Assembly (NCBI GenBank): GCA_945869265.1
Contig: CAMBOI010000001.1
Coordinates: 124,001 to 188,000, forward strand
Direction: 5' to 3'
From: an uncultured Prevotella sp.
Lineage (GTDB): Bacteria; Bacteroidota; Bacteroidia; Bacteroidales; Bacteroidaceae
Length of the DNA: 64,000 nucleotides
A program made the translations under genes and the position numbers. The first letter of the stretch is position 1; each line of letters begins with the position of its first letter. Below are positions 40,892 through 58,125 of the stretch, in pieces. The notes below the pieces were generated by a model. The model did no database searches and was not told the origin of the DNA. It was given only the letters and a program-made list of their open reading frames with translations.

Positions 40892-41353
40892 ATGCAGAAC
40901 CCGCCTGATTACCGCCACGATACAGTGTTGCCTTTGCCTATTGAGGTGAAGGCAAACGCTTGGGCTGTTGATGCTGCATGTTCGGGAAATCCAGGTCCGA
41001 TGGAATACCAGTGTATCGATCTTGCCACTGGTGCACAGGTATTCCATTTCGGTCCGTTGCATGGCACAAACAACATCGGTGAGTTTCTTGCTATTGTGCA
41101 TGCTCTCGCTCTCCTTGATAAACAAGGCGACACGTTGCGAACAGTATATTCCGATAGCTACAACGCCATCCTTTGGGTGAACAAGAAAAAATGCAAGACA
41201 ACACTTGAACGCACTGCCGAAACGGAATATCTATACCAAGTAGTGGAGCGTGCCGAGAAATGGCTTAAGACTCATTCTTTCAAGAACCCTCTTTTAAAAT
41301 GGGAGACAAAAAAATGGGGCGAGGTTCCCGCTGATTTCGGAAGGAAGAAATAA
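40892..41353 (+). CDS. rnhA: Ribonuclease HI family protein
   Basis: The 153-residue protein has the four acidic residues of an RNase H active site: Asp27 in VDAACSGNPGP, Glu64 in GTNNIGEFLA, Asp88 in YSDSYNAI and Asp148 near the C terminus. It would cut the RNA of RNA-DNA hybrids. The N-terminal 20 residues precede the fold, and the basic handle region of E. coli RNase HI looks short (KKKCK). This variant is common in Bacteroidetes. It ends 12 bases before the convergent histidine kinase gene. Confidence 0.9.
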   Translation: MQNPPDYRHDTVLPLPIEVKANAWAVDAACSGNPGPMEYQCIDLATGAQVFHFGPLHGTNNIGEFLAIVHALALLDKQGDTLRTVYSDSYNAILWVNKKKCKTTLERTAETEYLYQVVERAEKWLKTHSFKNPLLKWETKKWGEVPADFGRKK

Positions 41354-41365
41354 GCCCTCTATTTT

Positions 41366-44300
41366 TTACTTTACCGGAAGGGTAAGGAAAAAGCGCGAAC
41401 CATTCTCATACTCCGGGTCGATGCCCACTTTCCCTCCCAATCGCTGTGATATTACATGACAGATGTTCAGACCAAGGCCTGTGCCTTGGTGGAAGGAGTC
41501 GAGCTTGGCAAAACGCTCGAATATCTCCTGTTGCTTGTCCTTGGGTATGCCGCATCCCGTGTCGGTGACAGAAATTGTCAGTATGCTTTTTGTTTTGTCA
41601 TACGAACAATCCAATGTGATGTTTCCCTCTTCAGTATATTTGATGGCGTTAGTGAGGAAATTTATGATTACCTGTGACATTCTCATACCATCGGTTATTA
41701 TCTCAAAGCCATCGCCGACGTTGGTGGTGAACAGGATTGGTACATTGGGTTTTGCCCTGTGCTTCACCGTTTCTATCGACATACGGCAAATGTTGTTCAC
41801 GATATGCGGACAGTATTTCATCTTGTAGTTGCCGCTATGTAGGTCGTGCAGCGACAGTACGTCGTCGATGAGTTGTTTCAGCATTTCCTCATTACGTCGT
41901 ATAATATCCACAAAGTCCTCTTTTTCCTTTGCGTCAAGTTCGTTTTCCTCGTCCAACAAGAGTTTTGAGAATCCAACTATGGCGTTGAGCGGAGTGCGTA
42001 TCTCATGACTCATGTTTTGTATGAACGTACTCTTTAGCTTTTCCGACTCCTGAGCCTTGCTGATAGCGGCATTCAGTTCGTCGTTCTTTTCTCTTAGTCG
42101 CTTTTTGCTCTTGTGGGTGTGCCAAAGATAGGAAGAGAGAAAAGCTGTCAATAATAATGCGAAGACAAGTGCGAGTATGGAAATACGCTTGTTGAGTCCC
42201 GACTTTTCTTGTTGCATTTTGAGCACGGCTTCCTTACGGCTGTCCATAGCTTCTGACAGTCTCTGTTCTGCTTTCATGCGGTTGATTACCAATGCGTTGT
42301 TGTCCAACATCAGTTTATGTCGCGCCTGCTGGTATCTTCCCAGTTCATTTTGCTGTTTCAACTGTTCGATGTTGAGGTTGGCAGAGGCAAGTTTCATCTG
42401 CATGTTCTTTGTTTCCAGAAGTTTATTGCCTGCGATGTTGTTCATTTCCATGCGGTCTGCTTCAAACACTTCCTTCATCTTTTGACGGTGAAGCACCACC
42501 TCCTGCTGGAATATCTCGCATGCCTTCTTCCATTCTCCATTGTGTGCACAATCCAGCTCCATAATACGCAGATACATTTCGTCACTCAGTTCTGCCTTTG
42601 CCTTTGCCATAGCCTTGTCGCGCTTGCCTTCATATAGCATATTCATGATGTGCAGAATATTCTCTTCGTCAGCGTAACTAAATCCGTTTTCAGCCTTCAT
42701 CTTACTGATTTCTGCATATAGACGCAGGAATTCCGGCTTGTTGTTGTTCTCAAAAGCCAGTCGTGCCTTCTCTATTTTGATCAAGTATTCATCGTGTGGT
42801 GTCTTGCATTGTCTCTTTGCTTCATTTAAATAATGTGCGGCATCGTCATATTCTCCCTCTTGCCTATAAATTTTGCTGAGGTTGATGAGCATTGCTGTGG
42901 GGTTGCCATTCAATTGGTTTTTGAGGTAAATAACGTATGCGTCAAGATACAGTTGGATGGCATTCTTATAGGATCGTCTTGCCCTCTGCACTTCGCCGAG
43001 GGCTTCCATTGCTTCGAATTGTCCCATGCGGTCTTTCCTCTCTTGGGTTTCATCCAGCAGTTCCACAGCCAACTGTTGTGCCGTCAGCAATTGTTTATTG
43101 TTAAGACATTCGTATATTCTGTCGAGTTTTTCGTTAGCGGGTTGTGCCGATGATCCTGTAGGCATCATTATAGCCCCAATAGCGAGTATAGTGATAATCA
43201 CCTTCGCCAACTTGCCTTCGCTCTCGGCGAGCGAATTTCTCAGTACGTTATTGAGCATCGCCGTCAGTCCGTCGGCGGTATGGCTTATCTCCTTGTTTAT
43301 TTGTGTCTTTTCTTCCTTCGACATGGTGTCGATACGTGCCAATGCATTTTCCACCATACCGATAACCATGTTTGTCGGGGTGGCCACCTCATATCCCAAA
43401 TTGTCAACAAAAGCCGTTTTCACTCTTTCGGTCTCCTGTGCCTTGTCGAGTGCTTCCGACAATAATAACTGTTTTTTCTTAAGGTGTCTGATTACCAGTC
43501 TGTTGCTTGTCCATGCAATTAGTCCATAGACTATGACAAGACCGAAAACCACGATACTGAATATCATTGTGATGCGATGTCTCTTCCCCATTGCCACGAG
43601 CATCTGATATTGCGCATCGCGCTCTTCGGCTTCGGTGCTGTGCACAAGGCTGTCGGCTCTCATCTTTGCGATGAACTGCGAGTCATTGGCAAGTTTTATC
43701 TTTGCGTTTTCGTTTCTTGATTCGTTTAGCAGGTCCTGCTCCTTGTTCATCTTCAACTTCTGTTGAGCCATCTCATATTCCAGTTTCAAGCGTGTGAGAT
43801 TAAGCTGGCTTTTGATTATTCCGGCATCCATTTTGGCAATATGGTATGACATGCCCTCATCAAGAGTGTTGGCCTCAAGTCGGTGTGCCCTTGCCTGGAA
43901 TATGGGATAAGCCTTGCGATAGTCGCCCGTAGCCACATACACCTCGCGCAGTACCGCATAGCGGTCGTCGGGATTGTTGATGCCCATGGCAGTCTTTTCG
44001 GCTTTGTCAGCATTTCCTTCAATTATTTCCTTGATTGCTGTCATATAAGCCGCCATGTCAGTGCTTATCTCCTTACCGAAATATTGCTTTGCCTTATGAT
44101 AGTAGGAAATGTAGTCGCCGTACCTTTTTTCCCAATACAACATCTTGCACAGTTGTATATACATCAGTGCCTTGCCGTTAGTGGCTTTTACATTCTTCAG
44201 TCCTTTCTCCAGCAGTTCCACACCTTCACTTCTTCTTGTCAGTTTGTCAAGACATCTTGCCATATTCAAGTAGTTTTCAGAAAGGTCAATGGTGCGGAGG

Positions 44301-44623
44301 TCGGAATTAGCCGTCTCAATAGCTTTTCTGTACAGTGTTTCCGCTTTCACATAATCCCCTTGAACGTGATAGAGATTGGCGGTGGCGGAGTAGAATAGAT
44401 ATTTGCCGTATGCGTTGTTGTTCTTGAAGGCATTGTGTCCGATTCCCTTGATAGTGGAGAAAGCTTGTAGGTAGTCCTTGCTGTTGATTTCAGTTTGTGC
44501 TTTTCTCATGGCTGAGTCATAGTCATACTTATCCGCCCTTGCCGTGGTGGCAAGGCAACAGATGAAAGCTGTAATCAATACAGCAGTCCATATCCTAAGA
44601 TTATTCCCGGCTATTTCTGACAT
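41366..44623 (-). CDS. Double sensor histidine kinase: degenerate kinase half fused to a complete TPR-type histidine kinase
   Basis: One uninterrupted 1085-residue frame holds two copies of the same architecture. Half 1 has a signal/TM helix (10-28), TPR-like helices (35-250), a coiled coil (270-345), a TM helix (352-371) and a dimerisation-type helix pair (385-465) in which the H-box reads NLGYEVATP, with Tyr411 where His is expected; no ATPase domain follows. Half 2 starts at once with another hydrophobic segment (473-487), then TPR-like helices (495-710), coiled coil, TM (814-834), a normal H-box MSHEIRTP with His873, and a HATPase domain with N-box (988-992), DTGCGIP (1021-1027) and GTGLGL (1047-1052). 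No receiver or output domain is attached and no response regulator lies nearby. Confidence 0.92.
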   Translation of the reverse strand: MSEIAGNNLRIWTAVLITAFICCLATTARADKYDYDSAMRKAQTEINSKDYLQAFSTIKGIGHNAFKNNNAYGKYLFYSATANLYHVQGDYVKAETLYRKAIETANSDLRTIDLSENYLNMARCLDKLTRRSEGVELLEKGLKNVKATNGKALMYIQLCKMLYWEKRYGDYISYYHKAKQYFGKEISTDMAAYMTAIKEIIEGNADKAEKTAMGINNPDDRYAVLREVYVATGDYRKAYPIFQARAHRLEANTLDEGMSYHIAKMDAGIIKSQLNLTRLKLEYEMAQQKLKMNKEQDLLNESRNENAKIKLANDSQFIAKMRADSLVHSTEAEERDAQYQMLVAMGKRHRITMIFSIVVFGLVIVYGLIAWTSNRLVIRHLKKKQLLLSEALDKAQETERVKTAFVDNLGYEVATPTNMVIGMVENALARIDTMSKEEKTQINKEISHTADGLTAMLNNVLRNSLAESEGKLAKVIITILAIGAIMMPTGSSAQPANEKLDRIYECLNNKQLLTAQQLAVELLDETQERKDRMGQFEAMEALGEVQRARRSYKNAIQLYLDAYVIYLKNQLNGNPTAMLINLSKIYRQEGEYDDAAHYLNEAKRQCKTPHDEYLIKIEKARLAFENNNKPEFLRLYAEISKMKAENGFSYADEENILHIMNMLYEGKRDKAMAKAKAELSDEMYLRIMELDCAHNGEWKKACEIFQQEVVLHRQKMKEVFEADRMEMNNIAGNKLLETKNMQMKLASANLNIEQLKQQNELGRYQQARHKLMLDNNALVINRMKAEQRLSEAMDSRKEAVLKMQQEKSGLNKRISILALVFALLLTAFLSSYLWHTHKSKKRLREKNDELNAAISKAQESEKLKSTFIQNMSHEIRTPLNAIVGFSKLLLDEENELDAKEKEDFVDIIRRNEEMLKQLIDDVLSLHDLHSGNYKMKYCPHIVNNICRMSIETVKHRAKPNVPILFTTNVGDGFEIITDGMRMSQVIINFLTNAIKYTEEGNITLDCSYDKTKSILTISVTDTGCGIPKDKQQEIFERFAKLDSFHQGTGLGLNICHVISQRLGGKVGIDPEYENGSRFFLTLPVK

Positions 44624-57986: not shown

Positions 57987-58125
57987 GATTAGCTGGGGGA
58001 AGACTTAGAGCCCCCTTGACAAGGTGTGTTAATAGTTGTGCCTTTGGCCAGACACGACGGTTAGTGAATCATCTGTCAGAACAATAAAGAATAATGTTTT
58101 TTAGTAGTAAAATTTAAATTTTAAA
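57987..58125 (+). ncRNA. Structured 5' leader of rplM, candidate ribosomal-protein leader
   Basis: A 140-base leader separates the promoter from rplM, much longer than other leaders here. It contains a GGGGG/CCCCC hairpin (57995-58015), an AAGG/CCTT hairpin (58020-58044), and a GC-rich segment GGCCAGACACGACGG. Ribosomal-protein operons are commonly autoregulated through such leaders, L13 being the likely ligand here. Structure is read by eye. Confidence 0.5.

Follow-up and report, generated by a model that had tools for sequence, protein, structure and literature searches.

A natural fusion of a pseudokinase and a histidine kinase with two TPR sensors in Prevotella, with a predicted signal peptidase site between its halves

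A gene for two fused sensor histidine kinases was analysed in a stretch of 64,000 nucleotides (the window) from an uncultured Prevotella sp. (contig CAMBOI010000001.1, positions 124,001 to 188,000). The gene is a single open frame of 1085 amino acids on the minus strand (Table 1), along which the order signal peptide, tetratricopeptide repeats (TPR), coiled coil, transmembrane (TM) helix and dimerisation (DHp) domain occurs twice. BLASTP aligned the two halves across 279 columns at 25% identity (E 2e-15). Tyr411 of half 1 stands opposite His873 of half 2. Pfam placed TPRs in both halves, and HisKA (residues 864-930) and HATPase_c (978-1084) in half 2 only. Half 2 carries every kinase motif, namely the phospho-acceptor His in its H box and an ATPase with the N box NFLTNAIKYT, the G1 box DTGCGIP and the G2 box GTGLGLNI. 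Neither a phospho-acceptor His nor a HATPase_c match was found in half 1 by Pfam and alignment; its DHp (about 385-468) is followed by a new hydrophobic segment (about 471-493), and the gap is too small for an ATPase. No receiver or DNA-binding output domain is among the 20 Pfam families listed for the chain and no PAS domain among the Pfam matches, the sensors being TPRs. An earlier note on this DNA had described the duplicated sensor layout with Tyr411 in place of His, a first half lacking the ATPase and a complete second half, and the observation as a whole was confirmed. Its picture of a pseudokinase fused to an intact-looking kinase, with two sensors feeding one catalytic unit, was supported; its statement that no response regulator lies nearby agrees with the 0 of 18 receiver matches on the contig of the window (C1). 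Short single-domain response regulators of the genome lie at C2:85056 and C8:34380.

Each half is laid out like the Bacteroidota histidine kinases with TPR sensors, which run from signal peptide through TPR, coiled coil and TM to HisKA and HATPase_c; half 2 is a complete member of this group. The fusion differs from such kinases in that two are placed in one frame, one of which lacks the His and the ATPase. Single and adjacent unfused TPR kinases were seen in L090, L091, L092 and L151.

The DHp helical hairpin is present in half 1, as judged from the alignment to half 2 and from an AlphaFold model of the fused protein (16 alignment rows, mean pLDDT 73.9, pTM 0.49). In the model the helices follow one another alike in both halves: TPR pairs come first, long coiled-coil helices next, and a signalling helix then leads into the second helix of the DHp. 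TPR sensor 1 forms helical pairs with pLDDT of about 78-94 as far as residue 240, and the signalling helices are about 80-90 residues long (341-429 with 436-468 in half 1, pLDDT about 58-75; 810-890 with 898-929 in half 2). The alpha/beta ATPase appears only after the second DHp, and half 2 of the model matches the HK853 structure. The sequence matches of the pseudo-DHp in the PDB were weak, namely 4q20 DivL (383-462, E 0.011) and 7z8n (386-472, E 0.0029). Pfam HisKA was silent on the half 1 DHp of the window at E up to 10; on half 1 of relatives it gave a weak match for L083 (0.011) and a strong one for L085 (3.9e-11). The candidate cleavage site of the N-terminal signal peptide was read by eye as ARA/D.

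Table 1. Features of the fused kinase gene, followed by two other features of the window (positions within the window)
Feature	Position	Strand	Basis
Whole fused gene, pseudokinase half and kinase half, 1085 aa	41366..44623	-	open frame; orthologues
N-terminal signal peptide, residues 1-30	44534..44623	-	hydropathy; model helix 2-29
TPR sensor 1, residues 31-265, predicted periplasmic	43829..44533	-	Pfam TPR_7/TPR_2; modelled helical pairs
Coiled coil and TM helix 1, residues 266-372	43508..43828	-	hydropathy, model
Pseudo-DHp, residues 385-468, hairpin retained, phospho-acceptor His lost	43220..43471	-	alignment, model, selection, weak PDB matches
Tyr411 codon at the phospho-acceptor His position	43391..43393	-	alignment
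Internal signal-peptide-like segment, residues 471-493, predicted site SSA/Q (493/494)	43145..43213	-	run length, motif
TPR sensor 2, residues 494-715, predicted periplasmic	42479..43144	-	Pfam TPR_12; model resembles Rap TPR proteins
Coiled coil and TM helix 2, residues 716-834	42122..42478	-	hydropathy, model
DHp 2, residues 846-932, NMSHEIRTPLN box	41828..42088	-	HisKA 4.1e-19; box invariant in 16 aligned rows
His873 codon, predicted phospho-acceptor	42005..42007	-	HisKA match, alignments
Catalytic/ATPase domain, residues 933-1084	41372..41827	-	HATPase_c 9.6e-25; motif residues invariant in 16-row alignment
RNase H gene, convergent with the kinase gene, locus marker, outside the protein	40892..41353	+	Pfam RNase_H 8.7e-07
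L13-Bacteroidia ribosomal protein leader, elsewhere in the window	57995..58070	+	Rfam RF03127, 71.5 bits

With residues 1-700 as the protein query, nine full-length clusters from public sources were retrieved, 39-99% identical; a tenth match, P0010 (E 4e-4), was set aside as a PAS/hybrid kinase. An assembly join at 43150-43260 was excluded because the same unbroken junction occurs in the nine clusters, on a contig of an uncultured Prevotella metagenome-assembled genome and in other members of the genus, that is, on many separate contigs. The relative on that contig (L021/L050) is 71% identical and its flanks are those of the window, the RNase H gene, with a gene read as argS beyond it, on one side and a Na/Ca exchanger gene on the other. 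The full architecture, for which the earlier note had pointed to other Prevotella genomes, does recur there: with at most three candidates scored per genome, intact fused frames were read in at least 8 of 398 genomes of the genus (G000, G015, G103, G104, G147, G154, G333 and G371; two fusions each in G104 and G154). An overlapping second draw of 347 genomes added G076 and G274, the latter a one-contig genome. A search of 247 genomes at the level of the order, with a strict cut-off (E at most 1e-60) and scoring of two candidates in each genome, brought no further fusion. One search for half-1-only proteins gave three matches, which were read as contig-end or chimeric fragments. Among the openly licensed PubMed Central (PMC) papers listed, none dealt with such a fusion. 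The fusion was judged to be true, conserved and functional-looking, within a histidine-kinase theme that is already known.

The gene is an accessory one at a definable site, because in relatives without it (G009, G013, G018 and G019; RibD Pfam-confirmed for G009) ribD directly adjoins the RNase H gene, between which two the fusion sits at four group II loci. Among 17 stretches beside the RNase H gene in relatives without the fusion, some of which end at contig ends, none had a frame with an intact H box. A natural loss of the gene is seen in G111, where only the first 206 amino acids remain (L086 4941-5561, plus strand) between the exchanger and RNase H genes. In G154 two differing pseudokinase-kinase fusions stand in tandem at this locus (L082 3160-6672 and 6810-10334, minus strand), the second of which has Phe for His and has likewise lost its first ATPase. 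A divergent fusion lies away from the RNase H locus, beside a TonB-dependent receptor gene and a SusD-like gene identified by Pfam (L084 5568-9011, plus strand).

The collected fusions were sorted into four states. In state I (P0017) both halves are complete, with two HisKA and two HATPase_c domains. State II covers L085, L087, L088, L089 and the clusters P0014-P0016; here Tyr or Asn replaces the His of half 1, and HATPase_c is found by Pfam in half 2 only, P0015 being counted here as a near-copy of L085. Relatives of 1408-1419 amino acids at the same locus still hold a decayed ATPase in half 1, and the decayed half 1 domain of group II matched the HK853 and DivL cores in a low-confidence model (pLDDT 58.7). 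State III comprises the window, L093, L082 (in which two copies stand in tandem), L083, L084 and P0001-P0009, all of which have lost the half 1 catalytic domain. State IV (L124, L125) has the mirror order: half 1 holds HisKA and HATPase_c above the cut-offs, and half 2 lacks HATPase_c and has its His replaced by Arg or Lys. Since the same-locus relatives keep a decayed ATPase in half 1, the ATPase of this half was lost stepwise, an observation which is new here. An additional TPR block at the N-terminus, about 85-100 amino acids long, is carried by one half only: half 2 in P0004, P0005 and P0007 and half 1 in P0009. The TPR sensors thus seem to have been shortened separately, by lineage and by half.

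The residue at the His site was compared in the 22 fusions of states II and III, giving 14 Tyr, 3 Phe, 3 Asn, 1 Gln and 1 His (the Tyr of P0008 was taken from the alignment, the pattern scan having missed it). Of these 22 fusions, which share the window's order and an inactive half 1, 21 lack the His in half 1; L084 has it, in an altered box HKVTEP and without an ATPase, and its near-twin P0009 has Gln. Because the residue varies freely, the rule at the site is the absence of His and not Tyr itself. This bears on the likeness of half 1 to DivL, the Caulobacter pseudo-histidine kinase with Tyr550, which also has Tyr at the His site and keeps the DHp fold; like DivL, half 1 presumably regulates a partner kinase. 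It is improbable, however, that half 1 works as DivL does, a pseudokinase binding a phosphorylated response regulator and informing the kinase. DivL, as described in PMC4211667, is encoded on its own and possesses both PAS and catalytic domains, whereas half 1 is TPR-sensing, fused, and has neither PAS sensors nor an inactive catalytic domain. The variable residue, once even His, further shows that Tyr is not selected or kept across the family, and the match to DivL takes in the catalytic domain of half 2.

The selection acting on the inactive half was estimated from the ratio of nonsynonymous to synonymous substitution rates (dN/dS) for the pair L085-L088, which is mostly unsaturated, only the internal segment being saturated; pairs at 60-75% identity were saturated in several regions. 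The dN/dS was 0.09 for the dead DHp and 0.07 for the live one, 0.15 for the decayed catalytic domain and 0.09 for the live one, and 0.58 for the N-terminal signal peptide. The dead DHp is under purifying selection. The loss of the His and then of the ATPase resembles decay, and the whole gene can vanish (L086), as would be expected if half 1 were a functionless, decaying remnant of a fused duplicate. This explanation is nevertheless very improbable, as the dead DHp evolves nearly as slowly as the live one and is better conserved than TPR sensor 1 (74% against 65% identity, window compared with L093), and the frames are open down to 39% identity, with the caveat that intact frames were collected and one broken copy (G111) was met.

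Two quick trees, one with 64 rows and one with 44, both with SH-aLRT support only, were used to follow the history of the halves, 20 of the 64 rows (near-copies and singles) having been dropped for the smaller set; long-branch warnings were issued, including for L124_h2 with L125_h2. The first halves of states II and III formed one clade (SH-aLRT 99, 100) and the second halves another (99, 99), and since the two subtrees broadly mirror one another, a single fusion followed by common descent is the probable history of both states. P0017 has the same two half types in reverse, its half 2 joining the first halves (96, 91) and its half 1 lying near the second halves (81, 89). The halves of group IV pair together (82, 93) and then with the single kinase L092 (98, 99), away from the rest. 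Group IV is apparently an independent fusion in the opposite order, with the active half first, the long-branch warnings notwithstanding, and apparently a convergent mirror case. The earlier note had derived the gene from tandem duplication and fusion. A constraint of all halves of states II and III into one clade, a group fixed after a first tree to represent that hypothesis, was rejected (p-AU 0.0187), so that a recent tandem duplication of the window's halves is not supported and the halves, as a point new here, appear to be older paralogues from two clades. A double frame in G603 was discarded as a fusion, as a TAG splits two complete kinases, a stop that the open-frame length of 1429 spans. 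This arrangement (L151 3316-7605, plus strand), from another family of the order, with two complete TPR kinases in the same frame, is possibly a pre-fusion state.

The segment at the junction of the halves was then compared with other hydrophobic runs in 25 fused proteins. Its hydrophobic run has a median of 14 residues (12-17), against 16 (10-21) for the N-terminal signal peptides and 22 (15-24) and 21 (18-27) for the membrane helices; it resembles the former and is shorter than nearly all of the latter. The junction of the window reads SSA/Q behind a 13-residue core. An allowed pair at -3/-1 followed by Gln stands directly behind the internal segment in 21 of the 25 fusions (19 in a narrower scan), and the same rule is satisfied behind TM1 in none of the 25 and behind TM2 in one. 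The segment is the least conserved part of the protein (28-32% identity, window compared with L093, L082 and L083), while Ala493 and Gln494 are nearly invariant in the alignment. In Porphyromonas gingivalis Gln follows the cleavage site in more than 60% of the substrates predicted for signal peptidase I (PMC5837995). With its short core, small residues at -3/-1 and Gln at +1 the segment fits this Bacteroidota pattern, and it would appear to drift as a signal peptide does around a selected cleavage site. On these grounds the chain is predicted to be cut into residues of about 30-493 and 494-1085. The four membrane helices of the earlier note had to be revised on this point, as the segment opening half 2 is signal-peptide-like in length and carries a conserved cleavage motif; the product may therefore well be cut in two. 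A separately translated second kinase was also considered, with ATG, GTG, TTG and CTG codons as possible starts at the junction, but is disfavoured, as Met456 is absent from several relatives (TATLNDVL, TSILNNVL).

Several observations weigh against a selected cut that yields a regulated pair. The motif also occurs elsewhere by chance in 10 of the 25 proteins across the wider scanned stretch; the Gln is missing in four (L084, P0009, L124 and L125), in which small residues near the site remain; and many of the 25 fusions are near-copies, so that the independent lineages are fewer. In group II pairs the internal segment is not the least conserved part. A signal peptide retained after fusion could be an uncut anchor, and over an operon a cut fusion offers little but fixed stoichiometry. 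L084 keeps its His in half 1 and P0017 has both halves intact, and the gene is rare, as the genus counts indicate, and dispensable, as the G111 stub indicates. The packing of the model is weak evidence at its pTM and at the pLDDT over DHp 1, and the histidine kinase chains other than those that bridge the two halves in the structural alignments, HK853 included, align within half 2 alone.

It is rather unlikely that the product is an uncut receptor with four membrane spans, whose internal segment remains in the membrane as a helix and whose two DHp domains pair as a pseudo-dimer within the chain, so that two sensors feed one catalytic domain. Its topology fits, with a cytoplasmic DHp 1, a second membrane entry and a periplasmic TPR 2. 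In 10 of the 50 structural alignments listed for the model a histidine kinase chain bridges DHp 1 and the half 2 catalytic domain. The fusion is also conserved although an operon would serve a cut pair. Set against this are the 12-17 residues of the segment, short for a membrane helix, and the signal peptidase motif with Gln that is kept in most of the fusions despite fast sequence drift.

The favoured mechanism, to which about an even chance is given, is a conserved fusion of two TPR kinases cut by signal peptidase I at Ala493/Gln494, whose membrane partners pair through their DHp domains so that the pseudokinase sensor sets the activity of the kinase. Both TPR sensors would lie in the periplasm, and cutting at the internal signal peptide would release two membrane chains in a fixed 1:1 ratio. 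Half 2 would autophosphorylate on His873 and hand the phosphate to a distant response regulator. DHp 1 would heterodimerise with DHp 2, and a ligand on TPR 1 would act through DHp 1 to shift the kinase/phosphatase balance of DHp 2. Were the site left uncut, the same DHp pairing could take place inside one chain. The first DHp may act as an allosteric partner, a role with which its purifying selection and the bridging structural alignments are consistent. The dead half is thus predicted to be a built-in regulator, with two sensors governing one signal.

Regulation through DHp pairing, by analogy with RetS-GacS or ChrS-HrrS, is the likely mode of action. RetS and GacS are encoded by separate genes, and RetS keeps its kinase region (PDB titles 6dk7, 7n0e), unlike half 1. 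In Pseudomonas the one kinase is regulated by the other through a heterodimer, according to PMC12189002, as is proposed for the two halves here. In Corynebacterium glutamicum ChrS, a kinase with a broken catalytic domain, heterodimerises with its paralogue HrrS and alters the output (PMC9491836); this pseudokinase arose in laboratory evolution and in separate genes, unlike the natural fusion. In the Janus kinases the JH2 pseudokinase and the JH1 kinase, of one family, share one polypeptide. Their protein-kinase fold is unrelated and they have no internal signal peptide, so the likeness is one of analogy only. It is tentatively suggested, at somewhat less than even chance, that Prevotella-type bacteria hold a counterpart to the Janus kinases, built at least twice and in either order from neighbouring TPR histidine kinases as a polyprotein which signal peptidase cuts into a 1:1 pseudokinase/kinase pair.

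The bacterial pseudo-histidine kinases met in the literature are single cases, namely DivL and the laboratory-made ChrS. The fusions described here make up a series found in nature: P0017 has both halves intact, the L085 group a decayed ATPase, the window group a deleted one, and L124 and L125 the mirrored order. In this series the origin of a pairing of kinase and pseudokinase can be traced and put to the test. Such a protein would let a single kinase take up two signals from outside at a fixed stoichiometry, and it may be a bacterial polyprotein that the general signal peptidase cuts.
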